In this document: positions 1 through 54,856 of the stretch, one piece after another | Position numbering within the stretch: the stretch's first letter is position 1 | How the letters are laid out: each line of letters opens with the position of its first letter | NCBI GenBank assembly: GCA_023374045.1 | Contig: CM041776.1 | Coordinates: 139,565,296 to 139,629,295 of the forward strand | DNA: 64,000 nt | Direction: 5' to 3' | DNA from: Limonium bicolor | Taxonomy: Eukaryota; Streptophyta; Magnoliopsida; Caryophyllales; Plumbaginaceae | Notes under the pieces: generated by a model | Seen by the model: only the letters and a program-made list of their open reading frames with translations | Database searches by the model: none | Told to the model about the DNA's origin: nothing | Made by a program: the position numbers and the translations under genes

Positions 1-13
1 AGACGGTGAAGAG

Positions 14-3000
14 ATGCCAGACTTCGTGGTTACTCTCCCGTCGAAAGAGCGGATCCGATGTACCCGCTACTACCGAGGTGCTATTGTTCAAATCAGGGGT
101 GAAGAGTTTCCGATCGACTTGATAGAGTTCGACGGACTAGGCTTTGATGTGATTGTCGGGATGAACTGGTTGGAGCGGCACAAGGGCAGAATTCTGTGTG
201 CCGAGCATCGACTGCTTCTTCGGAGTCCATCTGGGGTTACCATATCTTACCGCCAGAGGCCCAGGGAGCCTTCGACACAGATCATCACCGCCATGGCTAT
301 GTATCACGAGTTACGACGAGGGAGTGATGTATACCTCTGCTATGTTCAGGACATAGAGAGAGACCCTGAGTTTAGCCCAGATGTGCCGGTAGTGTCGGAG
401 TTTCCTGATGTATTTCCTAAGGAACTGCCGGGCATGCCGCCAGCACGAGAGGTTGAGTTTGAGATTGACCTAGTTCCGGGCACCGGACCCATTGCGAAAG
501 CACCTTACCGTATGGCTCCAGCAGAGATGACAGAGCTCAAGGAGCAGCTGAGAGACCTACTCGACAAGGGCTTTATCCGCCCTAGTGTGTCACCATGGGG
601 AGCGCCGGTCCTCTTCGTGAAGAAGAAGGACGGTAGCCTCCGCCTATGTATTGATTATCGGGAGCTGAATGCTGTTACGGTGAAGAACCGTTACCCTTTA
701 CCACGCATCGACGATCTATTTGATCAGCTTAGGGGAGCATCAGTATTCTCCAAGATAGACCTACGTTCCGGATATCACCAGATTGCCATCCGTGACAGTG
801 ATATCGAAAAGACAGCTTTCAGAACTAGGTATGGGCACTATGAGTTCACCGTTATGCCGTTTGGCTTATCAAATGCACCAGCAAAGTTCATGGACTTAAT
901 GAACCGTTTGTTCCAAGATCAGTTGGACAAATCAGTGGTAGTCTTCATCGATGACATACTTGTGTATTCGAAATCGAGAGGTGAGCATGAAAGCCACCTG
1001 AGAGATGTATTGCAAACGAGAAAGAATCAGTTGTATGCAAATTTTCGAAATGTGAATTTTGGTTGAACCAAGTATCATTCCTTGGACATGTGATTTCTGA
1101 GGCCGGGATCGCTGTTGATCCGGCAAAGATAGATGCAGTGCGCACCTGGCCTAGGCCGAAGACAGTTACCGACATCAGGAGCTTCCTCGGTCTGGCAGGT
1201 TACTATAGGAGATTTGTGAAGGACTTCTCCAGTGTCTCGAAGCCGATGACTTCCTTGATGAAAGGATGCACCATTCGAGTGGACAGTCGACTGTGAGAGA
1301 GCTTTCGCGAGTCTCAAGGATGCTCTGACATCTGCACCGATTCTGACATTACCAGACGGTCCAGATGGTTTTGAGGTCTATTGCGACGCATCAGGCAGGG
1401 GTATGGGTTGTGTGTTGATGCAACACGGGAAGGTCGTGGCTTACGCCTCCCGACAGCTGAAGAAGCATGAGGAGAACTACCCTACCCACGACTTGAGTTG
1501 GGGGCCATTGTCTTCGCACTGAAGATATGGCGACATCACTTGTATGGGGTAAGTGTGACGATCTATTCTGACCACAAGAGTTTAAAGTACTTGTTCACTC
1601 AGAAGGAGTTGAACATGAGGCAAAGAAGGTGGGTTGAATTTCTGAATGATTATGACATCAATTTACAGTACAAAGAGGGTAAGGCAAATGTGGTAGCTGA
1701 CGCATTGAGTCGCCGAGCACACTCTCTCCATTCGCTAGTCTCTCATACTGGCTTGGTTGAAGAGGTGCGGAGTGCTCAGATGACGGATCAGTACATGATG
1801 GAGATTAGACAGAAGCTTATTGATGGCACATTCGAGGGTCAGAAGTACGACTTCAGACTCCACGATGATGACCTGATTAGGCTTAATGGCAGGTTGTGTA
1901 TACCCAGGAGTAGCGCTGAGCTGAAGGAGCGCATATTGAGTGAATCCCACTGTTCTACTACTTCGATTCACCCCGGAGCTTCAAAGATGTATAAAGGTAT
2001 GAAAAGATATTTCTGGTGGGCTGGAATGAAAAAGGATGTGAATGACTATGTGTTGAGGTGTCTCACTTGTCAGAAGGTCAAGTTTGAGCACCGACGGCCT
2101 GGTGGTATGGTGCAGCCAATGCCAGTGCCGGAGTGGAAGTTCCATGACATATCTATGGACTTCGTGTAGGGCTTCCGCCTACAAGGGGAGGTCTGAATAT
2201 GATTTGGGTGGTAGTTGACCGACTGACCAAGGTGTCTCGATTCATTCCGATGAAGGACACCTGGAAAGTGGCAAGATTGGCAGAATTATTCGATAAAGAG
2301 ATTGTTAGACATCATGGTGTACCAAAGACGATAGTATGACAGAGATACCAGATTCTTATCCAGATATTGGAAGTCTACACGAGAGGCACTTGGTACTGAA
2401 CTGAAATTGAGCACGGCGTTTCACCCACAGACCGATGGTCAGAGTGAGCGCACCATACAGACACTTGAGGATATGCTACGTGCATGTGCACTTGACTTTC
2501 AGACCAGCTGGATTGATAAGTTACATCTGATCGAGTTTAGCTACAACAACAGTTATCATGCATCGATCAAGATGTCTCCCTTCCAGGCATTGTACGGTAG
2601 ACCATGCCGCACACGCCATTATGCTGGGATGAGTCGAGTGAGACGGTCATTATAGGACCAGAGTATCTTGAGCAAGTTCAGGCAGAAGTTCGCCAGATCA
2701 GATAATATGAAAGCAGCTCAGGATAGACAGAAGTCGTACGCAGATGTGCGCCGACGTGACCTGGAGTTCGCCGTGGGCGATCAGGTATTTTTGAGAGTAT
2801 CCCCCATGAAGGGAGTATTTCGTTTTGGCCAGAAGGGCAAGTTGAGCCCGAAGTATGTGGGTCCTTATGTTGTGACGGAGCGGATCGGCCCGGTAGCTTA
2901 TAGACTTGATTTACCCGCCGAGCTGGGCAAGGTACATGATGTATTTCATGTGTCCCAGTTGAAGAAGTATATGTCTCATCCGTCTCATGTGCTTCAGCCG

Positions 3001-3195
3001 GAAAGGCTAACTTTAGAGCCGACCATGCGATCAGTGGAGACTCCGGTACGGATTCTGGATACTAAGACTCGAGACACTCGCCATAAGTCTGTGAGACTGG
3101 TGAAGGTTCTCTGGTCCAACCAGGACGTTGAGGAGGCCACTTGGGAGCTGGAAGATAAGATGAAGGCGAAGTACCCGTCGTTGTTTACTTCTTAG
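14..3195 (+). pseudogene. pol: pol copy 1 of element A: PR (partial), RT, RNase H, integrase, chromodomain; frameshifted
   Basis: The reading begins inside the protease (…DVIVGMNWL…) and runs through reverse transcriptase ([19 protein letters not shown]), RNase H (YCDAS, YSDHKSL, VADALSR), the integrase HHCC finger (CLTC), the integrase core and a chromodomain-like end. Against copy 2 it carries many small indels: about 3 bp near 1016, 1 bp near 1043, 2 bp near 1265, 1 bp near 1496, 2 bp near 2337, an extra 2 bp near 2611 and 2 bp missing near 2701. The break at 2166-2169 is shared with copy 2. Conversely, copy 1 keeps the CA pair near 285 that copy 2 has lost. Substitutions are far fewer than indels. 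The copy cannot make full-length Pol as assembled. Confidence 0.9.
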
Positions 3196-3495
3196 TGTTT
3201 GTATGTATAGGGTACGGGGCGTACCCCTATTTAAGGGGGGTAGAGCCGTTTCGGTTATGTATATGACATGTATTTGTATACATTGTCTGTGTTGTGTTGT
3301 CATGTTGTTAATGTTACAGACCGCTAAGTCTGAATGATGTTGTGATGTTTTGTTGTTTGGACCATGTGTCCGATATGATGTAAGATGTTGTTAATGTGAT
3401 ATAGAAGTGTTGTTAATATGTGTTCTCATGTTCTAATGTTTAAGTTATGTGGAAGTATGAACTTTGGGGACAAAGTTCTTTTAAGGGGGGTAGAT
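3196..3495 (+). other. 3' untranslated tail of element A copy 1, with two polypurine tracts
   Basis: There is no ORF. The segment holds a first AAGGGGGGTAGAG tract near 3233, next to a short inverted repeat (GTACGGGGCGTACCCC), and the 3' polypurine tract AAGGGGGGTAGAT ending at 3495 directly before the LTR. The same arrangement occurs before the second LTR. Confidence 0.8.
3483..3495 (+). other. Polypurine tract (plus-strand primer) of element A copy 1
   Basis: AAGGGGGGTAGAT abuts the LTR 5' end TGAAATACCCC. It is preceded by the GGGGACAAAGTTCTTTTAA context common in Tekay-type elements. Confidence 0.85.
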
Positions 3496-4115
3496 TGAAA
3501 TACCCCAAACCTAGTTATGTGTTGTTTAAACACCTAAATAGGTGTAATAAGACTAAAAAGTCTTAGAAACCTTACTAAACAAATTTAAACAAAAGGAAAC
3601 ACAAATGTGCTTTAAAGTCAATAAGAGCTAAAATGTGCTCTAAGCTTGGGATAAACTTGAGTAAGACCTAATGAGCTTACCAAGACCTCATTTATTACTA
3701 ATAACTTATTAAACCAATTACCAAAGAAAACCAAGCTTGAAAACAAGTTAAAACACAAAATGTGCTTTAAGAAGTCTTAAAGCACGTTTTTGAAAAATTG
3801 TCTTGTAAATGAGTTTTGAATGGCTAAATGTCCATCATTACTCTTAATATATATGTGTACTATATAGTATCACATTTGGGTGGCTATATTAGTGGGAAAT
3901 CAAAAATTTCACTTCTAAGTGCCTTGTTTAGGTGAATAGTACTTTTTATAAGCTAGTTTGTAACATATGTTGTATTAAGTAATTAAATTGACAAACAAAG
4001 ACTAAAACACCCTCACACTAATAAAGGGGGCCGGTTTTTATAAGTGTGTGACTCACCACTCTTAGTTGATAATAATAAGTAAGTAAAGAAAACTAAGTAA
4101 ACTTACTTTTTACTT

Positions 4116-4122
4116 TATAAAC
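4116..4122 (+). promoter_or_regulatory. Candidate TATA box of LTR A1
   Basis: TATAAAC stands about 30 bp before a CT-rich leader (TTCTCATTTCTTTCC), a typical plant core-promoter layout. The second LTR has the equivalent TATAAGC at 14263. Position is inferred from sequence only. Confidence 0.4.
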
Positions 4123-5578
4123 ATAAATATCTCCTTAAAAGCAAATCCTATCTTCATTCTCATTTCTTTCCTTCATTCCCACGGTTTGCAAACACCACTC
4201 TTCTTCCTTCTTCCTTGTTCTCTCTCGGTAATACTACTACCACCATGGAAGTTCCAACTTTGACCACTTGCTAAATCTAGCTCACTTGTCCAAATCAAAA
4301 ACAAAGACCACCAATCTCTTCCTCTCATCAAGCTCTTCATTCCTATCTTCTCAAAACTCCAAGGCTCCATTTCGGTGCCAAGGTGTTCCACCATTGAAGG
4401 AGCTTGAGCTTGTATTTTGACATATTATTACTCTCCTTTGCTTCTAGGTAAGGAATCTCAAAGAAAAATCATGTTTCCTCCATGTTCTTACCTTAACCGA
4501 AAATACACATTGATATAGCTCTTTGTGTGACTTTGTTCTAGCTTCATTTCAACTCTTCATGGACTAGGTGGAGTCCTCTCTTGTTATATATTCAAACTCT
4601 CTTCAAAGATCAAGGTAAAACAACTACATTAATGTTTTTGAAACAATGTCAAATTAGGGTTTACAATGAGATGAAGCTTATAGCTTGAATACTCATTTTA
4701 ATTGTTTGTATATTGTTTAGAACTTGACAAGGAATCAAAATACCATACGGTTTTGTAAGGAAACAAGAAGGAAGTGTGTGGAAAAAGAGGTAAATCTACT
4801 AACTTAATGTTGTTTAATGCCTTAGGAGAAATGAGCTATAATTGCTTATTAAAACTACCTAAAGAGCACATGGTAAATGACCTAGTAAATGTTCTCAAGG
4901 AGACTAGTAAAATAACATATGTCTTGTTGTATGTAATCGCAGGTTAAAGGCATATATATTGTGGAAATTCAGTGTTTTATGATTTAAGCACTTTAAGGGC
5001 CTAAGAGCCATGCATTTTAAGGGCCTAAGTGCCATGCAATTTAAGTTATGCACTATATTGTGATGTAGTGTGGATTTGGTGAAGTTGTGTAAGAAAGTGT
5101 TCTTGGTGTTCTTAGTGTTCTAGGATGTTAATGATGAAAATAATGTGCTAAGGTGTAACAAATACTAGGAGAAACTATGTCGAAATTTAGAAAATGCATA
5201 GGAGTTCAAGATGTTGTAAAGGAATTTTGATGAACTAGGAAGTGTTCTAGAGTGTAATAAGGACTTAGGCATGATCTTGAGGTTTTAGTATGTACCAAAG
5301 TCATTTTGGACTTAGATGAAGGCTTAGGCTAACTTTGGTAAAATAAGGAGGAAGTGTAAGCTTAGGAAAAAGGGATTTTAAGAATGACTTAAGGAGTTTT
5401 AGTTTGTAAGAAACAATGTTAAAGTAATGATGTTGTGTGGAAGAAATATCTAGGAATAATGATTGGAATAGGCAAGGAATGCCACTTAGAAACTTAAGGA
5501 GAAGACACTATAAGTGTTGGAGGCTTTGGAGAAATTTGGTTAAGTGTTTAAGGTTGTAGAAAATGAGTATAATGGCAC

Positions 5579-5826
5579 GTCCGAACTTCCGTCCGAACTT
5601 GGAAGCTCGGACATGCCCTGTTACGCTTACAGTTTTCTGGATTTTAGGTAGTGTCCGAACTACCGTCCGAACTTGGAAGTTCGGACGCACCTGTTATTTC
5701 TTAGGGAATTTTCCTCGACTCATGTCCGAACTTCCGAAGTCCGGACACAAGTTCGGACATGTGTCTGTTTTCTGTCTAAAATCACGGCTGGTGTCCGAAC
5801 TTGGAAGCTCGGACACAAGTTCGGAC
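5579..5826 (+). repeat. Hairpin array of LTR A1 (4 units, about 71 bp apart)
   Basis: Units start at 5579, 5653, 5724 and 5793. Each opens with GTCCGAACT and closes with AGCTCGGAC or GTTCGGAC, so each unit can fold into a stem of 8-10 bp, some with an extra nested arm. Spacers between units differ. The equivalent array lies at 15723-15970 in LTR A2. Confidence 0.85.
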
Positions 5827-7128
5827 AGGGCACTATATGGACCAAAAATTATTGTTTTAAGATGGGAATTGTTACCTAAAAATAGTAGTTGGTTAGTAAA
5901 GATATTATGAGGTTAAGCAAGACATGTTAGGTGAGTTTTAAAGGCAATTAAAAAGGATGAAAAGTTGTAACAAGTGTAAAGTAAAAGTAAACTAGTAGTG
6001 TTGAGTAGATAATGTTAACAATGGACTAGTGCGTTAATTAACCGACGTTACTAATGTGTTTAGGATTCTTCCAAGGTGGAAACCAGTCGAGGCAAGGACC
6101 GAGGTATGGTTTTCTTGCAGTCTGTTGCCTACCGGTTTACACCGGCTTGTGTGTTGTTTGTTTTTCTGTGTGTTTATGACTTTGTAAGATTAAACCATGT
6201 AAAGAGTTTACAGTTGTTAAATATTATTATGTTGTTAAGTGTGACTCTCTCTTCCCTTGTGTGGGTCTAACAAGACTTGACCTATGATTGTGAATTGTGT
6301 GTTGTGTTCAATGATGAACTACTAACAAGGGCTAACGGGGGAAGTGAGGAGTCCGGTCTGTTCCGGCCACGCGTGTGAGTATGGGAGTCGATGTCATAAC
6401 CGGTTCGATTCTCTCTGTATGTTATGGTTAAGTTTCCAATTTGGTTTCTAACCTTCCCTTTAGCTTAACCAAGGCTATTTTACTGACTCACGTCGGGCCA
6501 CAGGGGCATACTATGTGTTTTGTTTCGGTGTGCTTGGATCACTATATCCGAGGCACCTTGTGTTAAGTTAACCGTTCAATCTAACCGGACGGTAACGAGT
6601 TATGTAACGAGCTAAGTATGAGCGTGGCAACATTCTCTAGGCTCTCAATGGGGACTAACTGTGTTGGTTCTCTTCCTAAAAGGAATTGTATGTTGTGATG
6701 TGTGTTATGATGTGTACAATACCTGTGTGTTATATATGTATATGTTGTGTGTTTTAAAATAAATATCATGTCATCATGACAATTGGTTGCGCGTATCCCG
6801 GTAGCCGATGGGCTGCGCGTTAGCCATACCAGCAAAGGTGCTGACCCCCTCGGGGGCTCCATATTTTTATTGCAGGATGAGGATCGAAGAGGCAGAGTGG
6901 CTCTAGATCCTAGAGAGTAGTTTACTTTTGGAGTACTTTTGGATGTTTGCCCGGGATGCGCCTGTGCTCCCGTGGCGTATTATATACTTGTTATGATGGA
7001 TTACAGTGATGGTATACAGTGAAGGATTTTGTAAACACTCGGTATTATGTTGATGTATATATATGGTTGTTAGTTCTATGCTCGGGAGTCTGATCATCAG
7101 ACCGGTACATTTGTATTTATTCAGCCTT

Positions 7129-7150
7129 GTTAGCCACGTGGGTGGTTGAC
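7129..7150 (+). repeat. Conserved terminal stem-loop of LTR A1
   Basis: GTTAGCCA and TGGTTGAC flank a CGTGGG loop about 92 bp from the LTR end. Equivalent stems occur at 17274 (A2), 24752 (B1), 49761 (F1), 58970 (F2), and in G on the minus strand where element F inserted. Confidence 0.7.
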
Positions 7151-7247
7151 GGCATTGTAGCACCAATCGTTTAGTTACCGTTTAGTTGTTTATTTTCCGC
7201 TGCGATTCCAAGTATAGTTATGTGCGTAGTAGGGGTGTTACAAAAAG

Positions 7248-7259
7248 TGGTATCAGAGC
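7248..7259 (+). other. Primer binding site, tRNA-iMet type
   Basis: TGGTATCAGAGC, complementary to the 3' end of plant initiator tRNA-Met, five bases after the LTR end. It is embedded in an exact 10-bp inverted repeat (ATCAGAGCGA, loop AGTA, TCGCTCTGAT) at 7252-7275. Confidence 0.93.
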
Positions 7260-7461: not shown

Positions 7462-8134
7462 ATGGCAGGTAGACCACGAGGTAGAGGCCGCGGGCGCGGT
7501 ACTGGAGGTATGGGTGACCAGGATGATGATACTACGGCACAGACCATGGCTGAGGCAGTTGCAGCCGCCGTAGCCCAGTTGGTACCCGACCTAGTTGCTG
7601 CTATACAGCAAGGGCGACAGCCTGGAGTTCAGCCACCACCACCACCGCCACGAGAGACCAATTGGGTCAAGGCGTTGGCTGATCTGAGGCCGCCCTCATT
7701 CAGTGGGGAGACCGATCCCCGTAAGCTCGAGGCATACATCTCCGAGATGGAGACCGCCTTCGAAACCCTAGCACCACCTGAGCAGGTCAAGGTACGACTT
7801 GCTGCTTATACTTGAAGGCTCGGCACAAAACTGGTGGAAGCTTGTGCGCGAGGGTAGAGTTGCTGATCCGACGTTTCAGTGGAGGGAGTACACGGCTCTT
7901 CTGCGAGCCAAATACTACCCTATACATGTGCAAGAGGCCAAGCGCCTGGAGTTGGACAACCTGAGACAAGGGGATAAGATGACGGTAGATGAGTACTACT
8001 CAGCCTTCATCGGACTTATCCACCTGCTACCGGATCTGGGTTACTCGGACCGGATCCTTGTGAACCGTTTTTACAACGGACTGAACTATCGCCTACGCTA
8101 CGGCATGGGGCCTACTGGATATACCACCTTGCAG

Positions 8135-8230
8135 GTAAAGGAACTTACAGTGTAATGTGAATAAGTGTGTACAATGTGTTAATGTGTTGTGAGTTTATTT
8201 GGCGGGGCATAACTGACACCCTAAATATAG
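8135..8230 (+). other. Putative intron 1 in gag (96 bp, phase 0)
   Basis: It begins TTGCAG|GTAAAG, ends CTAAATATAG|GAGTGC, is T/A-rich and contains in-frame stops. Removing it joins TTLQ to ECYHAAAIVE, giving continuous Gag with the usual downstream basic region. Confidence 0.7.
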
Positions 8231-8489
8231 GAGTGCTATCATGCCGCTGCTATTGTGGAGATCACCGTCCGTCTGAGGGACGAGGAGAGTGCGCTCAAGC
8301 GCAAGGCTCAGAACGAGGGCCAAGGCACGCAAGGGCAGTGGGGAGGGAAGAAGAAGAAGTCATACTCCCAGTCCCAGAAAGGACAGCAACAAGGTGGCAA
8401 GGGCCAGACCCAGACCACCACTGCTGAGGAGCCTCTGCAGCTCACCTATGCGTATGCGGCCAAGCCCCTACGTTCTTACCCACCTAAGG

Positions 8490-8572
8490 GTAATTGTCTA
8501 ATCCTGTGTGATAAGTTAGAGTATATGTTAATAAGTTGTGAAACAAGTATTAATGGTGTATTGTGATAGCAG
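8490..8572 (+). other. Putative intron 2 in gag (83 bp, phase 1)
   Basis: Donor CCTAAGG|GTAATTG and acceptor GTGATAGCAG|CTAGC. Phase 1 on both sides, so removal keeps the frame between SYPPK and ASTGSGPERHYYC just before the first zinc knuckle. AT-rich, with stops in all useful frames. Confidence 0.65.
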
Positions 8573-8914
8573 CTAGCACGGGCTCTGGACCGGAGCGCCA
8601 CTATTACTGCAAGTGGTGCAACGGCGACCACCCCGGCAAGGACTGCAAGGGTAATGATGTTCAGTGCCGGTACTGTAAGAAGATGGGTCACCGCGACCAT
8701 GAATGCTGGCAGAACCCGAACAGTAGGAACTTCAGGCCCAAGGGGCAATGGAAGGGTAAGGCCACTGCGACCACCGATGGCCAGAAGACGGCGAACCAGC
8801 CACCCCCAGATCAGAGGTACACGGAGTCCCAGAAGGGGAAGGGGTCGGGGTCCAACAAGGCCACCCTGAATGTGGTGGACCGGTCTGAGGCGCCAGGGCC
8901 CTCTTCTAGACCAG

Positions 8915-9967
8915 GTACCGCCTAAATGTTAATGAAATAAGTGTCTGCATACCGCATTTCATGCATGTGTGTGAGTGAGTTTAAATAAACAACCATGTGA
9001 GTGAATATAAAGTATAGTGTGAGATTTACCTAATTAGAGTACTCTAAACTTAAAGGAACTTTCAATATATGTTATCCAATCCCACCCACACCAACCCTGA
9101 AGAAACCACCATCAACATCACCGACTTTCCTTGGAGCAATGTCAGGTTCCAGCCAGGTATGATACTTTAAATGGATACCTGACACCGGAGGCACAAATCC
9201 ATATCATCAGACGATGCGACGAACTTGGAGCAAAACCAGGAGGGTTTTACACACCCGAATACCCGAACGGAGCAAGGATGCAATTGAAGATGATGTGCAT
9301 GGGTAAGGACTGGAACCCTTACACCAAGTCATATCAAGAAGTTCGAGCTGAAGATGGAGCAACAGTAGCAAGTATACCAGAGGAGTTCCATGCGGTCGTT
9401 AACCACGCCGTGGGAATTGCTCAACAAGTTGAAGCGGATTCAATTCCAAGTGTAAAAGCAGATTTATGCATTGTAAACTTCTACCAGAAAGGTGGACGGT
9501 TAGGTATACACCAAGACAAGGACGAGTCACCCGAGTCTCTAAGTAAGGGAGTACCCGTGGTGTCTTGGTCCATTGGTGATACCGCAGTGTTTGTGTATGG
9601 CGAGCAGAAGCGTGCTGACCTCGCAAAGAAGCTACTGCTGAAATCGGGAGATGTATTAATCATGGGTGGGCAATCAAGGATGCTATACCATGGCATCAGA
9701 AAGATCAAACTGAATACCGCACCGTCGGCAGTGATCAATGCCACACACATGAAACCCGGACGTTTGAATCTGACCTTCAGACAGTTTTAAGCCTTGTATA
9801 ATTATGTGATAAACCGTATGTATTAAGGATGTTGTAAGTGTGAATCATGGCGACAGTATAAGCCAATGAATGTTGTAAAAAGGAGTGTGTTAATGAATAA
9901 AGTGGAGTTGTTTGAATCATATAAACCGTGTTGTTACCCAATACTTATTAGTTTGCCAATGAATTAG
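8915..9967 (+). other. Putative intron 3 (1053 bp, phase 1) enclosing the AlkB ORF
   Basis: A donor-like AGACCAG|GTACCG follows the zinc-knuckle exon, and an acceptor-like CAATGAATTAG|GCTGTG precedes the protease reading. Both are phase 1; removal joins ...SSRP to CALGTGGILSVCNK and on to GTFPVNG of protease with no stop. The interval contains the whole AlkB ORF (9069-9790) plus AT-rich flanks 8926-9068 and 9791-9967 that hold no other ORF. The acceptor's pyrimidine tract is weak and another acceptor (10011) exists in phase 0, so exact sites are uncertain. Confidence 0.5.
9069..9790 (+). pseudogene. AlkB-family 2-oxoglutarate/Fe(II) dioxygenase carried by element A (one frameshift)
   Basis: The AlkB family oxidatively demethylates nucleic acids (1mA, 3mC, m6A) using Fe(II), O2 and 2-oxoglutarate. 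The main frame 9131-9790 encodes a 219-codon stretch with GYLTPEAQ, GGFYTPEY, SIPSVKADLCIVNFY, the iron-binding HQD at codons 127-129 (9509-9517), SIGDTAVFVYG, SGDVLIMGGQSR, the distal His at codon 187 (9689) and a C-terminal RLNLTFRQF with Arg 211 and 217 as the 2OG clamp. The 5' part (ATG 9069, ...FPWSNVRFQPGMIL) is in another frame; a single missing base at the T run 9171-9174 would account for the shift. All catalytic residues are present. Most like the plant ALKBH1-type group by eye. It lies between gag and protease, the same strand, with no transposon inside it. It could also be a host gene fragment, but placement between gag and pol of a young element argues for capture. Confidence 0.9.
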
Positions 9968-10416
9968 GCTGTGCACTCGGAACGGGAGGTATACTAAGTG
10001 TCTGCAATAAGGCAGAAGCCGGCAAGAGCGGCACGATCCTCACCGGTACCTTTCCAGTGAATGGCGTGGATGCATCATCTTGTTCGACTCTGGAGCCTCA
10101 CACACATTCATTTCGCTATCATTTGCGAAGAGGCTGGGGTTAGACGGTGAAGAGATGCCAGACTTCGTGGTTACTCTCCCGTCGAAAGAGCGGATCCGAT
10201 GTACCCGCTACTACCGAGGTGCTATTGTTCAAATCAGGGGTGAAGAGTTTCCGATCGACTTGATAGAGTTCGACGGACTAGGCTTTGATGTGATTGTCGG
10301 GATGAACTGGTTGGAGCGGCACAAGGGCAGAATTCTGTGTGCCGAGCATCGACTGCTTCTTCGGAGTCCATCTGGGGTTACCATATCTTACCGCCAGAGG
10401 CCCAGGGAGCCTTCGA
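9968..10416 (+). pseudogene. pro: Protease region of pol copy 2 (element A)
   Basis: Retropepsin-like aspartic protease that cleaves the polyprotein. The reading GTFPVNGVDA is followed, after a small frame shift at about 10074-10080, by the active site LFDSGASHTF and then VIVGMNWL. A 2-bp loss (CA) near 10416 relative to copy 1 breaks the link to reverse transcriptase. The start is set by the putative splice acceptor, because no ATG is suitable. Confidence 0.8.
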
Positions 10417-12315
10417 CAGATCATCACCGCCATGGCTATGTATCACGAGTTACGACGAGGGAGTGATGTATACCTCTGCTATGTTCAGGACATAGAGAGA
10501 GACCCTGAGTTTAGCCCAGATGTGCCGGTAGTGTCGGAGTTTCCTGATGTATTTCCTAAGGAACTGCCGGGCATGCCGCCAGCACGAGAGGTTGAGTTTG
10601 AGATTGATCTAGTTCCGGGCACCGGACCCATTGCGAAAGCACCTTACCGTATGGCTCCAGCAGAGATGACAGAGCTCAAGGAGCAGCTGAGAGACCTACT
10701 CGACAAGGGCTTTATCCGCCCTAGTGTGTCACCATGGGGAGCGCCGGTCCTCTTCGTGAAGAAGAAGGACGGTAGCCTCCGCCTATGTATTGATTATCGG
10801 GAGCTGAATGCTGTTACGGTGAAGAACCGTTACCCTTTACCACGCATCGACGATCTATTTGATCAGCTTAGGGGAGCATCAGTATTCTCCAAGATAGACC
10901 TACGTTCCGGATATCACCAGATTGCCATCCGTGACAGTGATATCGAAAAGACAGCTTTCAGAACTAGGTATGGGCACTATGAGTTCACCGTTATGCCGTT
11001 TGGCTTATCAAATGCACCAGCAAAGTTCATGGACTTAATGAACCGTTTGTTCCAAGATCAGTTGGACAAATCAGTGGTAGTCTTCATCGATGACATACTT
11101 GTGTATTCGAAATCGAGAGGTGAGCATGAAAGCCACCTGAGAGATGTATTGCAAACGTTGAGAAAGAATCAGTTGTATGCAAAGTTTTCGAAATGTGAAT
11201 TTTGGTTGAACCAAGTATCATTCCTTGGACATGTGATTTCTGAGGCCGGGATCGCTGTTGATCCGGCAAAGATAGATGCAGTGCGCACCTGGCCTAGGCC
11301 GAAGACAGTTACCGACATCAGGAGCTTCCTCGGTCTGGCAGGTTACTATAGGAGATTTGTGAAGGACTTCTCCAGTGTCTCGAAGCCGATGACTTCCTTG
11401 ATGAAAAAGGATGCACCATTCGAGTGGACAGTCGACTGTGAGAGAGCTTTCGCGAGTCTCAAGGATGCTCTGACATCTGCACCGATTCTGACATTACCAG
11501 ACGGTCCAGATGGTTTTGAGGTCTATTGCGACGCATCAGGCAGGGGTATGGGTTGTGTGTTGATGCAACACGGGAAGGTCGTGGCTTACGCCTCCCGACA
11601 GCTGAAGAAGCATGAGGAGAACTACCCTACCCACGACTTGGAGTTGGGGGCCATTGTCTTCGCACTGAAGATATGGCGACATCACTTGTATGGGGTAAGT
11701 GTGACGATCTATTCTGACCACAAGAGTTTAAAGTACTTGTTCACTCAGAAGGAGTTGAACATGAGGCAAAGAAGGTGGGTTGAATTTCTGAATGATTATG
11801 ACATCAATTTACAGTACAAAGAGGGTAAGGCAAATGTGGTAGCTGACGCATTGAGTCGCCGAGCACACTCTCTCCATTCGCTAGTCTCTCATACTGGCTT
11901 GGTTGAAGAGGTGCGGAGTGCTCAGATGACGGATCAGTACATGATGGAGATTAGACAGAAGCTTATTGATGGCACATTCGAGGGTCAGAAGTACGACTTC
12001 AGACTCCACGATGATGACCTGATTAGGCTTAATGGCAGATTGTGTATACCCAGGAGTAGCGCTGAGCTGAAGGAGCGCATATTGAGTGAATCCCACTGTT
12101 CTACTACTTCGATTCACCCCGGAGCTTCAAAGATGTATAAAGGTATGAAAAGATATTTCTGGTGGGCTGGAATGAAAAAGGATGTGAATGACTATGTGTT
12201 GAGGTGTCTCACTTGTCAGAAGGTCAAGTTTGAGCACCGACGGCCTGGTGGTATGGTGCAGCCAATGCCAGTGCCGGAGTGGAAGTTCCATGACATATCT
12301 ATGGACTTCGTGTAG
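10417..12315 (+). pseudogene. pol: Reverse transcriptase, RNase H and integrase zinc finger, pol copy 2
   Basis: One open frame of over 600 codons. Reverse transcriptase motifs: [32 protein letters not shown], catalytic [10 protein letters not shown] at 11083-11094, FLGHVIS. RNase [11 protein letters not shown] (Asp at 11530), [31 protein letters not shown]. Then the integrase HHCC finger ([10 protein letters not shown]..., CLTCQKVK) and the first catalytic Asp of the integrase core (SMDF, 12304). The frame ends at TAG 12313-12315. Apart from the ends this stretch is intact, unlike copy 1. Confidence 0.95.
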
Positions 12316-13343
12316 GGCTTCCGCCTACAAGGGGAGGTCTGAATATGATTTGGGTGGTAGTTGACCGACTGACCAAGGTGTCTCGATTCATTCCGATGAA
12401 GGACACCTGGAAAGTGGCAAGATTGGCAGAATTATTCGATAAAGAGATTGTTAGACATCATGGTGTACCAAAGACGATAGTATCCGACAGAGATACCAGA
12501 TTCTTATCCAGATATTGGAAGTCTACACGAGAGGCACTTGGTACTGAACTGAAATTGAGCACGGCGTTTCACCCACAGACCGATGGTCAGAGTGAGCGCA
12601 CCATACAGACACTTGAGGATATGCTACGTGCATGTGCACTTGACTTTCAGACCAGCTGGATTGATAAGTTACATCTGATCGAGTTTAGCTACAACAACAG
12701 TTATCATGCATCGATCAAGATGTCTCCCTTCCAGGCATTGTACGGTAGACCATGCCGCACGCCATTATGCTGGGATGAGTCGAGTGAGACGGTCATTATA
12801 GGACCAGAGTATCTTGAGCAAGTTCAGGCAGAAGTTCGCCAGATCAGGGATAATATGAAAGCAGCTCAGGATAGACAGAAGTCGTACGCAGATGTGCGCC
12901 GACGTGACCTGGAGTTCGCCGTGGGCGATCAGGTATTTTTGAGAGTATCCCCCATGAAGGGAGTATTTCGTTTTGGCCAGAAGGGCAAGTTGAGCCCGAA
13001 GTATGTGGGTCCTTATGTTGTGACGGAGCGGATCGGCCCGGTAGCTTATAGACTTGATTTACCCGCCGAGCTGGGCAAGGTACATGATGTATTTCATGTG
13101 TCCCAGTTGAAGAAGTATATGTCTCATCCGTCTCATGTGCTTCAGCCTGAAAGGCTAACTTTAGAGCCGACCATGCGATCAGTGGAGACTCCGGTACGGA
13201 TTCTGGATACTAAGACTCGAGACACTCGCCATAAGTCTGTGAGACTGGTGAAGGTTCTCTGGTCTAACCAGGACGTTGAGGAGGCCACTTGGGAGCTGGA
13301 AGATAAGATGAAGGCGAAGTACCCGTCGTTGTTTACTTCTTAG
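12316..13343 (+). pseudogene. int: Integrase core and chromodomain-like tail, pol copy 2
   Basis: Continues after the frameshift at 12310-12316, which lies between the first catalytic Asp (12304) and the remaining core. The second Asp is in IVSDRDTRF (12486) and the Glu in GQSERT (12594), 36 codons later, the D-D-35-E spacing of integrases. The C terminus has VGDQVFLRVSPMKG, HDVFHVSQLKKY and the chromodomain-like KVLWSNQDVEEATWELEDK...YPSLF before stop 13343. The same frameshift is present in copy 1 (2166-2169), so it predates the divergence of the copies. Confidence 0.93.
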
Positions 13344-13640
13344 TGTTGTATGTATAGGGTACGGGGCGTACCCCTATTTAAGGGGGGTAGAGCCGTTTCG
13401 GTTATGTATATGACATGTATTTGAATACATTGTCTGTGTTTGTTGTCATGTTGTTAATGTTACAGACCGCTAGTCTGAATGATGTTGTGATGTTTTGTTG
13501 TTTGGACCATGTGTCCGATATGATGTAAGATGTTGTTAATGTGATATAGAAGTGTTGTTAATATGTGTTCTCATGTTCTAATGTTTAAGTTATGTGGAAG
13601 TATGAACTTTGGGGACAAAGTTCTTTTAAGGGGGGTAGAT
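13344..13640 (+). other. 3' untranslated tail and polypurine tract of element A copy 2
   Basis: As for copy 1: an upstream AAGGGGGGTAGAG tract near 13380, then the PPT AAGGGGGGTAGAT ending at 13640 next to the LTR. No ORF. Confidence 0.8.
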
Positions 13641-16600
13641 TGAAATACCCCAAACCTAGTTATGTTGTTTAAACACCTAAATAGGTGTAATAAGACTAAA
13701 AAGAGTCTTAGAAACCTTACTAAACAAATTTAAACAAAAGGAAACACAAATGTGCTTTAAAGTCAATAAGAGCTAAAATGTGCTCTAAGCTTGGGATAAA
13801 CTTGAGTAAGACCTAATGAGCTTACCAAGACCTCATTTATATACTAATGAACTTATTAAACCAATTACCAAAGAAAACCAAGCTTGAAAACAAGTTAAAA
13901 CACAAAATGTGCTTTAAGAAGTCTTAAAGCACGTTTTTGAAAAATTGTCTTGTAAATGAGTTTTGAATGGCTAAATGTCCATCATTACTCTTAAATATAT
14001 ATGTGTACTATATAGTATCACATTTGGGTGGCTATATTAGTGGGAAATCAAAAATTTCACTTCTAAGTGCCTTGTTTAGGTGAATAGTACTTTTTATAAG
14101 CTAGTTTGTAACATATGTTGTATTAAGTAATTAAATTGACAAACAAAGACTAAAACACCCTCACACTAATAAAGGGGGCCGGTTTTTTAAGTGTGTGACT
14201 CACCACTCTTAGTTGATAATAATAAGTAAGTAAAGAAAACTAAGTAAACTTACTTTTTACTTTATAAGCATAAATATCTTCTTAAAAGCAAATCCTATCT
14301 CATTCTCATTTCTTTCCTTCATTCCCACGGTTTGCAAACACCACTCTTCTTCCTTCTTCCTTGTTCTCTCTCGGTAATACTACTACCACCATGGAAGTTC
14401 CAACTTTGACCACTTGCTAAATCTAGCTCACTTGTCCAAATCAAAAACAAAGACCACCAATCTCTTCCTCTCATCAAGCTCTTCATTCCTATCTTCTCAA
14501 AACTCCAAGGCTCCATTTCGGTGCCAAGGTGTTCCACCATTGAAGGAGCTTGAGCTTGTATTTTGACATATTATTACTCTCCTTTGCTTCTAGGTAAGGA
14601 ATCTCAAAGAAAAATCATGTTTCCTCCATGTTCTTACCTTAACCGAAAATACACATTGATATAGCTCTTTGTGTGACTTTGTTCTAGCTTCATTTCAACT
14701 CTTCATGGACTAGGTGGAGTCCTCTCTTGTTATATATTCAAACTCTCTTCAAAGATCAAGGTAAAACAACTACATTAATGTTTTTGAAACAATGTCAAAT
14801 TAGGGTTTACAATGAGATGAAGCTTATAGCTTGAATACTCATTTAATGTTTGTATATTGTTTAGAACTTGACAAGGAATCAAAATACCATACGGTTTTGT
14901 AAGGAAACAAGAAGGAAGTGTGTGGAAAAAGAGGTAAATCTACTAACTTAATGTTGTTTAATGCCTTAGGAGAAATGAGCTATAATTGCTTATTAAAACT
15001 ACCTAAAGAGCACATGGTAAATGACCTAGTAAATGTTCTCAAGGAGACTAGTAAAATAACATATGTCTTGTTGTATGTAATCGCAGGTTAAAGGCATATA
15101 TATTGTGGAAATTCAGTGTTTATGATTTAAGCACTTTAAGGGCCTAAGAGCCATGCATTTTAAGGGCCTAAGTGCCATGCAATTTAAGTTATGCACTATA
15201 TTGTGATGTAGTGTGAATTTGGTGAAGTTGTGTAAGAAAGTGTTCTTGGTGTTCTTAGTGTTCTAGGATGTTTAATGATGAAAATAATGTGCTAAGGTGT
15301 AACAAATACTAGGAGAAACTATGTCGAAATTTAGAAAATGCATAAGGAGTTCAAGATGTTGTAAAGGAATTTTGATGAACTAGGAAGTGTTCTAGAGTGT
15401 AATAAGGACTTAGGCATGATCTTGAGGTTTTAGTATGTACCAAAGTCATTTTGGATTTAGATGAAGGCTTAGGCTAACTTTGGTAAAATAAGGAGGAAGT
15501 GTAAGCTTAGGAAAAAGGGATTTCAAGAATGACTTAAGGAGTTTTAGTTTGTAAGAAACAATGTTTAAGTAATGATGTTGTGTGGAAGAAATATCTAGGA
15601 ATAATGATTGGAATAGGCAAGGAATGCCACTTAGAAACTTAAGGAGAAGACACTATAAGTGTTGGAGGCTTTGGAGAAATTTGGTTAAGTGTTTAAGGTT
15701 GTAGAAATGAGTATAATGGCACGTCCGAACTTCCGTCCGAACTTGGAAGCTCGGACATGCCCTGTTACGCTTACAGTTTTCTGGATTTTAGGTAGTGTCC
15801 GAACTACCGTCCGAACTTGGAAGTTCGGACGCACCTGTTATTTCTTAGGGAATTTTCCTCGACTCATGTCCGAACTTCCGAAGTCCGGACACAAGTTCGG
15901 ACATGTGTCTGTTTTCTGTCTAAAATCACGGCTGGTGTCCGAACTTGGAAGCTCGGACACAAGTTCGGACAGGGCACTATATGGACCAAAAATTATTGTT
16001 TTAAGATGGGAATTGTTACCTAAAAATAGTAGTTGGTTAGTAAAGATATTATGAGGTTAAGCAACATGTTAGGTGAGTTTTAAAGGCAATTAAAAAGGAT
16101 GAAAAGTTGTAACAAGTGTAAAGTAAAAGTAAACTAGTAGTGTTGAGTAGATAATGTTAACCAGGGACTAGTGCGTTAATTAACCGACGTTACTAATGTG
16201 TTTAGGATTCTTCCAAGGTGGAAACCAGTCGAGGCAAGGACCGAGGTATGGTTTTCTTGCAGTCTGTTGCCTACCGGTTTACACCGGCTTGTGTGTTGTT
16301 TGTTTTTCTGTGTGTTTATGACTTTGTAAGATTAAACCATGTAAAGAGTTTACAGTTGTTAAATATTATTATGTTGTTAAGTGTGACTCTCTCTTCCCTT
16401 GTGTGGGTCTAACAAGACTTGACCTATGATTGTGAATTGTGTGTTGTGTTCAATGATGAGCTACTAACAAGGGCTAACGGGGGAAGTGAGGAGTCCGGTC
16501 TGTTCCGGCCACGCGTGTGAGTATGGGAGTCGATGTCATAACCGGTTCGATTCTCTCTGTATGTTATGGTTAAGTTTCCAATTTGGTTTCTAACCTTCCC

Positions 16601-17387
16601 TTTAGCTTAACCAAGGCTATTTTACTGACTCACGTCGGGCCACAGGGGCATACTATGTGTTTTGTTTCGGTGTGCTTGGATCACTATATCCGAGGCACCT
16701 TGTGTTAAGTTAACCGTTCAATCTAACCGGACGGTAACGAGTTATGTAACGAGCTAAGTATGAGCGTGGCAACATTCTCTAGGCTCTCAATGGGGACTAA
16801 CTGTGTTGGTTCTCTTCCTAAAAGGAATTGTATGTTGTGATGTGTGTTATGATGTGTACAATACCTGTGTTATGTTATATATGTATATGTTGTGTGTTTT
16901 AAAATAAATATCATGTCATCATGACAATTGGTTGCGCGTATCCCGGTAGCCGATGGGCTGCGCGTTAGCCATACCAGCAAAGGTGCTGACCCCCTCGGGG
17001 GCTCCATATTTTTATTGCAGGATGAGGATCGAAGAGGCAGAGTGGCTCTAGATCTTAGAGAGTAGTTTACTTTTGGAGTACTTTTGGATGTTTGCCCGGG
17101 ATGCGCCTGTGCTCCCGTGGTGTGTTATATACTTGTTATGATGGATTACAGTGATGGTATACAGTGAAGGATTTTGTAAACACTCGGTATTATGTTGATG
17201 TATATATATGGTTGTTAGTTCTATGCTCGGGAGTCTGATCATCAGACCGGTACATTTGTATTTATTCAGCCTTGTTAGCCACGTGGGTGGTTGACGGCAT
17301 TGTAGCACCAATCGTTTAGTTACCGTTTAGTTGTTTATTTTCCGCTGCGATTCCAAGTATAGTTATGTGCGTAGTAGGGGTGTTACA
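13641..17387 (+). repeat. LTR A2 (3' LTR of the array)
   Basis: 3747 bp, TGAAATACCCC...GGGGTGTTACA, near identical to LTR A1 with scattered short indels, so a recent arrival. It has a TATA-like box at 14263, donor at 14594, hairpin array at 15723-15970, acceptor-like site ending 17020 and terminal stem-loop at 17274-17295. It abuts LTR fragment D with GTCAA as the next five bases. Confidence 0.93.
15723..15970 (+). repeat. Hairpin array of LTR A2
   Basis: Same four GTCCGAACTT...TTCGGAC units as in LTR A1, at the same distance from the LTR start. Confidence 0.85.
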
Positions 17388-30125: not shown

Positions 30126-32665
30126 TGATAAGTGTAAAATACTTATACTTTTAACAGTATATTTGATTTAATATTCATAATGAATTGGCTTATATTTCAC
30201 ACTTATCTTATAGTTTTTCTACTATTTATATTTTGATGTGAACTAATATATTTTATATGTAAAATGCAGGAAAACTGTTGGATTTACATTAAAGATTACA
30301 ACACAACAAATGGTGACATATGTATACATACATATATACAAAACCAAACCAGAAATTGAAGAGTCCGCCGTTTTCCCTTATATTGTCGGCCCAATATTGT
30401 GCCCCACTGGATTGATGCTGGATGTATATGCATGTTGGTCGAGGTTTGCAGCAGCCCATTGGAAGTGGTGACTAAATCTATCGCATGCATGGAGATAGGC
30501 TGAGAAGTCATTTACGTGGGCATAATTACGAAGCAACAACGTCATACACATAGAAGCCCATTCTTCTTTAAGTCTGGACCGACAAAACAACTACAGACGC
30601 ACAGACCATCGTGAGCAAATATCATATATGATATTAATATCACCCATGCTATTTGCTGGGATTCACGATGGCCGGGGATACAGACTGGCAAGAGCCGGGG
30701 ATCGCACTACTACCATCTTCCTCATCTCTATCACGATATAATCACTGTCTTCATACCATCTTCACGATCGACTTACACTCCACACTCACCATTCACCATC
30801 CATCACCGCCTTCACGACCACTCACACCACGCCCAGCCCTGCATCTCCATTTTTCACGCCACACACATTCAAGCAAATCTTTACTGACGTCTCACCCGCA
30901 CCGCACCTCACCATTCACCCATCATCCTCACGCCATCGCCATCATTCACCACCATCACCATCGTCTTCATTCCATCACCAACCTCACCATCTTCATGCCT
31001 TCACCGTATCCCTCCGTCGTAACATTTCATCACCCGCCATCGTCGAACAGAGGAGGATACATCTGTGTCGACCACCGGAATCACCCTCCAACACCATCAT
31101 CCCGCTACGGCCATACACACCACCGTCTTCACGATTTATCGCCATCATCGTAACGTCATCATTCATCATCTTCATTCACGATACTGCTACACACCCGCAT
31201 CGGATCATTCCATCCCCATCTACACCGACGACTTCACCATCGCCATCGCATCGTCATTCACCAACCACCATCACCCGAGGATCTTCTTCATCGCCATGAT
31301 CACCATTCACGCTCGCAACGGAGACAGACGACGCCATCATTTTCACGCCATTCACGCCGGTAAACAACTCACACAGACCATCGTCTTCTTCTGCCGATCA
31401 TCGTCTTCACCACCACCGTGACCATCGTTCTCGCACACACCCATAGCCGAAACACCTCAGACTATCGTCTTCTGTCATCACTACCGCATCATCATTCTCG
31501 AGCATCATCTTCATTCACTCACGCCTTCAACAGAGACTGAGGAGATCACCATCCACACCACGAACCATCATCGAGCGCATCTCCATCGCCACGATCCATC
31601 ACCGTAATCATCCGCATCATCACCGCCAACATCATTTCTTTTCGTCGTCGATTGTACGAGGAAAGCAAGCGGCGTGAGGAGGCAGATCGAGAATGTGAGA
31701 GCGACAACAGAGGTGAAACCGACACGGGTTGAGAACGGGGCGGGGGAAGATGACAAGAGCGAACCGGTTCGGGCAGAGACAAATCGTGAACCGGACCAGG
31801 GCTTAATAAGGGTTTTTACTAAACTTATCCTATTACATTAATTTGTTACATGTTATTCACTTCTTGTTACATTCTTAGTTATTACATAACATTTGATATT
31901 TGTTTTAATGTTTGTTTTCATCTTTGAAATAATGAGTGAGTAGTTTATATTTACTCTGGGTGATGGTTTATTTCAGTTTGTTTTAATTATGTAACTTATA
32001 TTCTTGCTGGTTTTAATTAATTATGGATTGTTATGATTAATATTATTCTTGCGTTTTTTAATAAATATCATGAGTTTATTGAACTACTTTACTAAATCTA
32101 TTTTGATCCGACCAAGTGATAAATAGATAGGTTAAATTAATCTGTATATCTGTGGAATTATTGATTGAATTAATTAATTATTCCTGCAGACGCAAATTAT
32201 TATTCCTCGTACTTAATCCGTTTACATGTGTTTCTACTTGAGTCTAGACTAGACCCCGCATTTCTGGTAAACGAATTCTTCTGAGACAATGATTTAGCTC
32301 TTAAGAAAATATTAGGGATTTTACCAATCTGTCTTTAATTAACCAATAGACATAATTGATCAAACGATTTTAACCTGAACCCAGAGTCCCGTTCATCCAA
32401 TTCATCTATCACTTTATTTTATCTGTTATTTATTTTCCTGGATGTTATTTTAATTATATCGTTCTTGTTATTTATTTAAATCCCAAAACAAAAACAACCC
32501 CCTTTGAAATACCCATTGTCTTAGGCTAGACTTATTTACCTCAAGTCCCGTGGATTGACACCTGGTCGCTTCCAAATTGCTATACTACTACGACCGGGAT
32601 TTTTACAACCCGGCGGTCTATTGATTTGTTGATTTCTAGGATTTTTCTTAGTTTTTAATACATCA
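30126..32665 (+). repeat. 5' LTR of element E
   Basis: 2540 bp, TGATAAGTGT...AATACATCA. Its centre (30700-31670) is a strand-biased CATCAY/CACCAT-rich stretch which keeps reading frames open by composition; the ORFs there (30653-31153, 31065-31421) differ from those in the 3' LTR and show no domain. Confidence 0.9.
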
Positions 32666-32887: not shown

Positions 32888-35092
32888 TGTAACACCCCTA
32901 AAACCGGCCTAAGAGTTAAGGGTGCTACACGCCGCGTATTACTACCTAATAACGCAAGGCTCTAAAACACTCAAACGCAATAAAGGCCCAAAACAACGTT
33001 TACATAAATATTGTAAACCAATGTATTCAAATACAGCGGAAGCAAATACCAAATCCCCAAATACGAAACTGAGTCGGAAACAGAAGTCAAAAGTATAAGG
33101 CCCGAAGGCTACAACATCCCAAAGTATCAAACTGAATGAACATAAAAGCTAAATACTATAGCTCCAGAACTCAAGATGATCCTCGCTGATCAATCTGCAA
33201 AAATGTTAGAAGTAGGGGAATGAGCACACAACTATGCCCAGTAAGCAGCGACCGTCATCAGTAAGGTCGCTCAACACAATTGAAAACAGAAGAAGGAGAA
33301 GATAAATATTTATCCACAATTCTCAATATCCAGAAGCTTTCAGAACAGAAACAGAGTGGAACTCAAGGGTTCCCAATTCAGAAACAGTCAGAACACTTAA
33401 ACAGAAAGGGGGACAAAACACAATGCACACACTCAGAAGGGTCGGAGACCCATAGACCATACCAGGTCTCTCGGCAACGCAGAAATGACTCGAAAGAGCC
33501 AAAGGGTTCGTCAACCCCACAAAACAGAAAGGGAATGACCCACACTCAGAATGACGTCTACATGGTATACCACGGAATAGCTCGACCCAGCCATTCACGG
33601 CTCAGAAACAATGTGCAATGTCCCAAAACAGAAGGGTTGCTTAAACAGAAGCAAAGTGCATTTAAATATGCCAAAACACTCATAAATCAGTAGTACAGAA
33701 CATAAGGAATCCAATGCCGCAGACGGCACTCAAATCGGAGTTCAAACGAAGAAGTTAAGTTGAAAACAGAGGGGTGTCCGAACTTGTGTCCGGACGTCGA
33801 AGTTCGGACACAAGTCGAGACTCAGAAACCAGAGAAAGCCAAATGTCCGAACTTGTGTCCGGACATCAATGTTCGGACACAAGTCGAGTTGAAATCAGAT
33901 AGAGGAATTCATGTCCGAACATCCAAGCTCGGACGGATGTTCGGATGGGTTTTACGGGAAAACACGCGGAAGGTCCGACCTTGTGTCCGGACTTCGAAGT
34001 TCGGACACAGGTCGAACTTTAAATCAGAGGGAAAACTTGAGGGTGTGTCCGAACATCCATGTTCGGACAGATGTTCGGACATACCCCGAACTTGAAAACC
34101 AGTAAGGCAAGAACGCACTGTCCGAACTTCAAAGCTCGGACAGAAGTTCGGACAGTGCGAAAACTGCAAATTCCAGAAGACGAACAGAGCAGAAAAACAA
34201 CGCAATCCAACACCACGAATTGCCAAATAAGCACACACACCAAATCAGACATTAAAACAGGAAACCATGGGGGTTTAGCCATCCAAAAATCACAACAAAA
34301 CGCTAATAGAAACCACACACACAAACCACAAACAATCCTTGCAACACCCCATGGCTGAACTTCCAAACTGAATCGAGTAACCACCTACCTCAATAATCAG
34401 CACAATCCAACGATCTGAGCAGTTCACAGCAACACGAAACGAAACCGCCAGCCAGACACCGATCAACGAGCACTGATTTCCACAATGACAAATCCATAAT
34501 CAGAAAACACAGAAGGAACCCCCAAACTCAAAACCTCGAAAGACTGTAACACAAACCTGGATTCGGAAGTCTAGAATCCCACAGTCCAAACAGTCTACAG
34601 CCTGTGCAACTTCACAACTCCAATCAGAACCAACGCCACTGATTCAACCACAATCGAAAGCCTAAAATCAGAACTGAGAGAGAGAGGAAACCAACGACGA
34701 AATTCGGAATTCTGCAGCGCAAACCTGATAGCGAGGAGAAGGAAAACCAGCAACGAAGAACTCCAATCCAAACGCAGCAGCAGAATTACAAATTTCAGCA
34801 GATGAAAGAAGAGAGAAGAGAGGAAGGAAGGAGCCAAAACTGTCGCTCTGAAGGCACGATGAAGAGACGCTCTCACGATCTATCTGACGTGAATGATTAG
34901 GAAAAGAAGAATTTAAGGAATTCCTTTCCTTATAACCAAATAATTAATTACCTTAATTAATGAATCAATGACCTCCTCGTCCTTGGCAATTAAAAGAATG
35001 TCGCTGACGTCCCAACTGGCAAGGGATTTTAATCCAACTTTAGAACACGTTGTAGCAGATATAATAAAGGTACAAATTGTACGGGTTATAAA
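32888..35092 (-). mobile_element. Solo LTR H with TT...CA ends
   Basis: On the minus strand it runs from TTTATAACCCG (35092) to GGGGTGTTACA (32888), 2205 bp, flanked by GTTTA on both sides. The 5' end begins TT rather than TG. It holds a six-unit hairpin array (33776-34153) of the GTCCGAAC type shared with LTR A. The ORFs of 33280-33693 and 33760-34384 fall on repeats and have no domain. Inserted in the leader of element E. Confidence 0.88.
33776..34153 (-). repeat. Hairpin array of solo LTR H (6 units)
   Basis: On the plus strand units start at 33776, 33845, 33913, 33974, 34047 and 34120 (61-73 bp apart), each GTCCGAAC...GTTCGGAC, several with a nested TCCGGAC arm. Confidence 0.88.
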
Positions 35093-35807: not shown

Positions 35808-36059
35808 CTTTGTAATTTATTTTGTCAATGATTTATATTTAAGGTTCAATTTATTTTTGTGCCATTTTATACAATTGTTTCTCATTACTGTCATTTAATT
35901 TCAGTTTAAAATTTTTCTGTCATTTAATTTTCAAGTACTATAAGTTCGTTTGTCTTAGTCATTTCGTTAATTTTGTTTTTTAGTATTCCTTTGTTAACTT
36001 TAGTTCCAAATTCAACACATTTCGTTCCTTTCTCTATTGCTGTTACAAGTACCTAGTGG
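35808..36059 (+). other. Leader of element E before gag
   Basis: T-rich non-coding, again with TGTCATTTAATTT repeats. Ends at the gag ATG. Confidence 0.6.
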
Positions 36060-45738: not shown

Positions 45739-45743
45739 GTAAG
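45739..45743. repeat. Target site duplication, left, of element F
   Basis: GTAAG, repeated at 59095-59099. Confidence 0.92.
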
Positions 45744-49885: not shown

Positions 49886-49897
49886 TGGTATCAGCGC
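49886..49897 (+). other. Primer binding site of element F, tRNA-iMet type
   Basis: TGGTATCAGCGC, one mismatch from TGGTATCAGAGC, five bases after the LTR. TATCGCTCTGATGAC follows, as in A. Confidence 0.85.
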
Positions 49898-54843: not shown

Positions 54844-54856
54844 AAGGGGGGTAGAT
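54844..54856 (+). other. Polypurine tract of element F
   Basis: AAGGGGGGTAGAT before TTTAATACCCC, with GAGGGCAAAGTTCCTT upstream. Confidence 0.88.

Follow-up and report, generated by a model that had tools for sequence, protein, structure and literature searches.

A well-formed AlkB gene is carried by an LTR retrotransposon in the stretch of 64,000 nucleotides analysed here (the window). Its domain, which is of the plant ALKBH1 type and possesses a complete set of catalytic residues, is situated between gag and protease of a Ty3/gypsy element and forms a clade with six unnamed sequences. That a relative with a 76% identical pol has AlkB on the same contig is strongly suggested by the protein searches described below.

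The carrier element and its AlkB domain

The coordinates of the element and of the gene it carries are collected in Table 1. The carrier is a Ty3/gypsy element, apparently chromovirus-type, with a chromodomain match below cut-off, PF00385 after the integrase reaching 21.5 bits with a cut-off of 25.1 (E 2.2e-4) and not being listed for the related pol protein P0239. Pfam matches above cut-off in pol comprise PF08284, PF00078, PF17917, PF17919, PF17921 and PF24626, with PF00665 below cut-off as PF00385 is, and RNase H is represented by one stretch each of PF17917 and PF17919, which overlap in residues and are followed by the chromodomain-like end. In gag, PF03732 is matched with E 7.2e-18 within 7799-8152 and CCHC-type pieces are found in frame at 8554-8925. 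The two LTRs are 99.15% identical over 3757 columns, with 12 mismatches and 15 gap openings. A host gene merely located beside an element can be dismissed, the AlkB domain being enclosed by the gag and the protease of a single LTR unit.

Table 1. Features of the AlkB-carrying element in window coordinates; a slash marks a putative splice junction.
Feature	Position	Strand	Remarks
5' LTR, 3747 bp	3496..7242	+	begins TGAAATACCCC, ends GGGGTGTTACA; common to the preceding, incompletely seen unit
Primer binding site TGGTATCAGAGC	7248..7259	+	read directly 3' of the 5' LTR end; presumably of the initiator tRNA-Met type
gag, in pieces	7462..8914	+	frame break near 7800, two putative introns; PF03732 and CCHC-type pieces
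Putative intron 1 in gag, 96 bp	8135..8230	+	CAG/GTAAAG...ATATAG/GAG; in-phase join
Putative intron 2 in gag, 80 bp	8490..8569	+	AAGG/GTAATT...GATAG/CAG; in-phase join
Putative intron-like segment, gag to protease, holding AlkB	8915..10015	+	donor 8915, acceptor before 10016
AlkB N-terminal part	9056..9130	+	frame-disrupted in the window copy; starts at putative splice acceptor AAAG/GAAC
AlkB domain, ALKBH1-type	9131..9790	+	PF13532 E 1.2e-46; 5xeg E 1.3e-64; 47% fold match to OsALKBH1; open to stop codon
Protease, RT, RNase H, integrase, chromodomain-like C terminus	10016..13343	+	at least three frames
Polypurine tract TTTTAAGGGGGG	13624..13635	+	read just 5' of the 3' LTR
3' LTR, 3747 bp	13641..17387	+	pairs with 3496-7242

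The AlkB element constitutes one unit of a partial tandem with a spacing of approximately 10.14 kb, the window starting inside the preceding unit. The units at 1-7242 and 10142-17387, aligned over 7263 columns, are separated by 25 indels as against 18 substitutions, with several 2-base indels falling in coding sequence. In the window copy, gag, pol and the N-terminal part of AlkB are interrupted by frame breaks, as is the pol of the neighbouring unit. Indels outnumbering substitutions in this way point to errors of assembly or to very recent decay, and the frame breaks of the window copy are therefore to be read with caution.

The AlkB frame on the plus strand at 9101-9790 is open from stop to stop, and the 219 amino acids read from 9131 match PF13532 (AlkB / 2OG-FeII_Oxy_2) over residues 13-217 with 159.8 bits, far above the curated cut-off of 31.2 bits, the full AlkB domain lying at 9131-9787 in nucleotides. 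As first-order simulation of 8900-10100 produces a stop-free run of at least 229 codons in 2 of 2000 cases, the length of the frame alone is only moderately unusual; the real evidence for AlkB is the Pfam match and not the frame length. In NCBIfam, only E. coli-type AlkB models were matched, all below their own cut-offs. An AlphaFold2 model built from 33 aligned sequences has a pLDDT of 92.8 and a pTM of 0.89, with residues 1-6 below 50. All catalytic residues are present, including the iron ligands H127, D129 and H187 of the HxD...H motif (codons at 9509, 9515 and 9689), the 2-oxoglutarate residues N116, Y118, R211 and R217 of NxY and RxxxxxR, and N213. These roles are the usual ones of AlkB residues and agree with a study on AlkB in orchid retrotransposons (PMC9289625).

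The initial annotation had placed an AlkB open reading frame between gag and protease, with HQD at 9509-9517, the distal histidine at 9689 and no catalytic residue missing, and had proposed a Pfam profile search of the frame; on all these points the search bears it out, with PF03732 upstream and PF08284 and RT downstream of the PF13532 match. The start that it had set at 9069 has to be abandoned, as the ATG at this position opens a different frame, which stops soon after, and the first ATG in the frame of the domain is 9278. Similarity to the relatives begins upstream at around 9055 in a third frame, where a search confined to 9000-9300 pairs GTFNICYPI with GTYDICYPI of P0054 (9 residues, 78% identical, E 0.002), and the N terminus of the window copy is therefore frame-disrupted with the domain proper open. 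By tblastn, AlkB is present once in the 64-kb window.

Subfamily, origin and known counterparts

The window AlkB is of the plant ALKBH1 type in both sequence and fold searches. Among PDB sequences, the best match is 5xeg, followed by AlkB of E. coli (E 6e-23 at best) and ALKBH1 of mammals (E 1.5e-11 at best), and none of the 21 sequences matched is an ALKBH5 by name. Equally, the fold search is headed by two entries with the title 'The structure of OsALKBH1', namely 5xeg and 5xoi, which are 47% identical to the window AlkB, with the first ALKBH5 at rank 47 of the 50 rows shown (16% identity) and the top viral match at 18%. An origin from ALKBH9/10 is rejected, as both searches give ALKBH1, and so is a viral origin, with 18% identity for the top viral fold compared with 47% for OsALKBH1. 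No relative was confirmed in viral contigs, which were scanned with the AlkB and pol proteins and with the AlkB alignment, and in a scan of prokaryotic contigs the 80 loci listed of 584 were all bacterial by title, with a top identity of 43%.

A search of 5.8 billion proteins, of which the best 120 rows of each of two listings (240 rows) were considered, gave unnamed proteins as the closest among the matches listed, namely P0001 (70% identity), P0003 and P0004 (66% each) and P0002 (60%), with P0016 (69% over 63% of the query) and P0030 (56% over 64%) as relatives of partial cover. Named plant proteins follow in these listings at 42-53% identity, several of them termed ALKBH1C/D or 'DNA N(6)-methyladenine demethylase'. 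Plant ALKBH1B/C/D and OsALKBH1 are thus the closest named sequences and folds, from which the window AlkB differs in being borne by a retrotransposon and in belonging to a clade of its own on a long stem. In a tree of 62 rows (the window AlkB and 61 chosen of 235 proteins), this clade of the window AlkB and six unnamed rows has an SH-aLRT support of 95 and is separate both from a group of 39 plant rows (support 97) and from one of 16 bacterial-like rows (support 100); in a 41-row tree with the outgroup removed, its support is 100 and its stem 0.75. Placement of the clade with monocots, eudicots or Asteraceae is not rejected in any case (p-AU 0.547, 0.524 and 0.565 in the 41-row tree), and therefore no donor group is singled out. 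Among the proteins listed, P0121 of Artemisia annua is an annotated protein of 478 aa in which part of the ALKBH1-type domain is duplicated, a gene-model artefact or a real duplication.

AlkB in Ty3/gypsy elements is already in print. Of 121 angiosperm genomes screened in PMC9289625, only those of two Phalaenopsis species are reported to contain Ogre/Tat elements with AlkB. There, the orchid AlkB groups with ALKBH5 and Arabidopsis homologues, and it demethylates m6A in single-stranded RNA in vitro, drastically less so in the H448A mutant. The orchid element Gypsy_Pa_2799 as described there and the element in the window have in common that they are plant Ty3/gypsy LTR elements with an extra PF13532 gene and complete catalytic residues. 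Gypsy_Pa_2799, however, is a Tat/Ogre element of 25.5 kb with dual RNase H, 6.4-kb LTRs and an ALKBH5/9/10-type AlkB that has a 565-aa ORF to itself, gag and pol being joined in one other ORF (PMC9289625), whereas the element in the window is apparently chromovirus-type with 3.75-kb LTRs and holds an AlkB that by the above searches is not of the ALKBH5/9/10 but of the ALKBH1 type, between gag and protease and probably in an intron. As the orchid elements captured a related AlkB described earlier, the present case looks like a second, separate capture. In the open-licence PMC literature searched, neither an ALKBH1-type AlkB in an element nor an AlkB borne by a chromovirus was met.

The initial annotation had considered a host or a viral ALKBH gene as the one captured and had proposed a comparison with ALKBH1/9/10 and viral AlkB; a plant host gene and ALKBH1 are what remains of these options. 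Its interpretation as capture holds in so far as a host-type AlkB resides in a Ty3/gypsy LTR element, but the kind of event is not new, since the statement that no standard retrotransposon lineage with AlkB was known is superseded by the orchid Ogre/Tat elements (PMC9289625).

Putative splicing and possible action of the enzyme

Gag-AlkB and Gag-Pol can plausibly be brought into one phase by GT-AG joins at putative sites. The gag frame reaches a stop just after CAG/GTACCG at 8915; joining of this donor to GCAG/AAGCC at 10016 would give SSRPEAGKSGTILTGTFPVNG, which aligns ungapped to six melon proteins where their linker between gag and protease is uninterrupted (E 8e-4 to 5e-3), and joining, in the same phase, to AAAG/GAAC at 9056 would give SSRPGTFNICYPIP, which equals the AlkB N terminus. 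Such a layout would explain the missing start codon of the AlkB frame. Equally, removal of the two putative introns at 8135-8230 and 8490-8569 would keep gag in phase. When all GT-AG pairs without early stops were ranked by homology, the proposed exact joins were not singled out, the gag-pol join coming third of 25 when eight relatives were used and fourth of 25 when three were, that of gag and AlkB sharing second place among 14, and that of gag intron 1 being only 16th of 22. By matrix score, the donors are located in the top 0.8% (intron 1), 2.6% (intron 2) and 7% (third donor) of the GTs of the window.

Taken together, we incline, if only slightly, towards capture and retention of an ALKBH1-type gene with formation of a Gag-AlkB fusion by splicing and action on the nucleic acid of the element. 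A plant chromovirus-type Ty3/gypsy lineage would have captured a plant ALKBH1-type gene, which would have been kept between gag and protease while the element copies diverged, and AlkB would now lie within an intron-like segment of gag-pol. Usage of the donor at 8915 with the acceptor around 9056 would lead to a Gag-AlkB fusion for which no start codon of its own is needed, and usage with the acceptor around 10016 to Gag-Protease-Pol. The Gag-AlkB fusion would bring the enzyme into virus-like particles, where it would strip methylated adenine (m6A or 6mA), or else the lesions 1-methyladenine and 3-methylcytosine, from the RNA or the single-stranded cDNA of the element. It is only from family and context that we infer a function of the window AlkB, including demethylation of the element's own RNA or cDNA. 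Rice ALKBH1 is reported to act on 6mA, with ALKBH1 preferring DNA that is single-stranded or unpaired (PMC10469495), and cDNA is therefore a possible target besides RNA. The more specific proposal, that the lineage produces a Gag-ALKBH1 fusion by alternative splicing and, with the enzyme packed in its particles, rids its RNA or single-stranded cDNA of adenine methylation or alkylation, and that this represents a second, independent and differently targeted AlkB capture by Ty3/gypsy elements, is put forward as a tentative possibility.

The AlkB might, on the other hand, be functional as a separate protein, produced from its own promoter, a downstream start or another splice event, and act on cellular RNA or chromosomal DNA and not in particles. 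This we regard as unlikely, albeit with some claim to attention: the AlkB of the orchid element is a separate ORF (PMC9289625), and for rice ALKBH1 an action on 6mA of chromosomes and an influence on histone marks are described (PMC10469495), whereas a start at the first in-frame ATG would cost the first 49 residues of the modelled domain.

Other plant elements are comparable in part. Ogre and EVADE elements reportedly possess introns that are functional, and introns or alternative splicing lead there to different products, as predicted for the element in the window; no enzyme gene is described inside an intron there, unlike in the window, where AlkB would lie in an intron and splicing is only predicted (PMC12786077). 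Tekay elements of sunflower and grasses, which are chromovirus elements with a gene additional to gag-pol as the element in the window apparently is, reportedly possess extra ORFs of no known protein domain 5' of gag-pol, whereas the extra gene in the window encodes an enzyme between gag and protease (PMC11728184). Two different Ty3/gypsy lineages with two different AlkB subfamilies would indicate, by convergence, that plant retrotransposons are held in check by adenine methylation or alkylation, and switching between Gag-AlkB and Gag-Pol by splicing would be an uncommon arrangement for an additional gene of a retrotransposon. Fungal DNA transposons reportedly carry TET/JBP dioxygenases, which are a different family (PMC12730594). 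Together with the AlkB carried by plant RNA viruses (PMC9289625), the top viral fold match being only 18% identical to the window AlkB, they are cases of mobile parasites whose 2OG-Fe dioxygenase has, or is presumed to have, methylated nucleic acid as its substrate, as would apply to the element in the window.

Relatives with AlkB and with a related pol

Carriage of AlkB by the element is probably not a one-off. The pol proteins P0246 (82% identity to the window pol over 76% of the query) and P0239 (1095 aa, 76% over 96% of the query) are the most identical among the best 120 of 7948 pol matches, within which named proteins top out at 69% over 41% of the query, and the two form a clade with the window pol (support 100 in a 41-row tree). 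The open frame of P0239 starts at protease, and gag is therefore out of frame with pol there too. P0239 and the AlkB protein P0002 are each reported from an ENA contig of 26,561 bp; judged by equal size only, both seem to be encoded by the same contig, and we infer that a chance match of this size with just this pol is unlikely. A relative seemingly with both genes on one contig is the reason to think that the AlkB-carrying element is more than a single case.

Over the seven rows of the AlkB clade, the catalytic columns are invariant in 8 of 8 cases where covered (by six of seven rows at R211 and N213 and five of seven at R217), compared with 81 of 208 domain columns (p 4e-4). This invariance, which is not a dN/dS estimate, would fit purifying selection; as the catalytic columns are also conserved in cellular relatives, it is no proof of selection in the element.

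A passenger gene, taken up from host ALKBH1 by one element family through template switching and decaying without function, would account for the frame-disrupted AlkB N terminus and the broken gag and pol of the window copy, for the single AlkB in the window and for the long stem of the clade (0.75). This is nevertheless rather improbable, given that the frame of the domain proper is open and no catalytic residue is missing, that P0001, P0002 and P0003 reach the AlkB C terminus at 60-70% identity with motifs intact, and that P0002 appears to sit with a related pol; moreover, the 25 indels versus 18 substitutions between the units may reflect assembly error and not decay. Least probable, with only a small chance of being correct, is that the six unnamed relatives represent normal cellular ALKBH1 genes from a plant group outside the sampling, only the element in the window having a recent copy of such a gene. 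The equal size of the ENA contigs of P0002 and P0239, the near identity over their overlap of P0003 and P0054, which derive from different sources and contigs, and the lack of any named plant protein of the clade among the 240 rows listed argue against such cellular genes, even though P0002 and P0054 retain a DICYP stretch resembling FDIC of cellular proteins, and the clade points to no particular donor group.

Besides the AlkB-carrying element, the window holds further repeats; scans for tRNA and Rfam families in the window gave no match. Gag- and pol-like frames of another Ty3/gypsy element, which by eye we take to be Athila-like, extend over 36057-41787, with P0239 pol matching 38993-40666 (36%) and 40591-41604 (24%). 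A second LTR element at approximately 45743-59094, without AlkB by tblastn, has LTRs ending in GGGGTGTTACA at 49881 and 59094, of which the first is followed by a primer-site-like TGGTATCAGCGC, and contains repeat blocks that are 96.6-97.3% identical. Long His/Pro/Ser-rich frames of similar wording at 30638-31421 and 43558-44894 are probably repeated non-coding sequence. Furthermore, short stretches of 33762-34158 match the LTR at 15719-15971 with 76-92% identity, some of them inverted, the LTR itself containing internal repeats.
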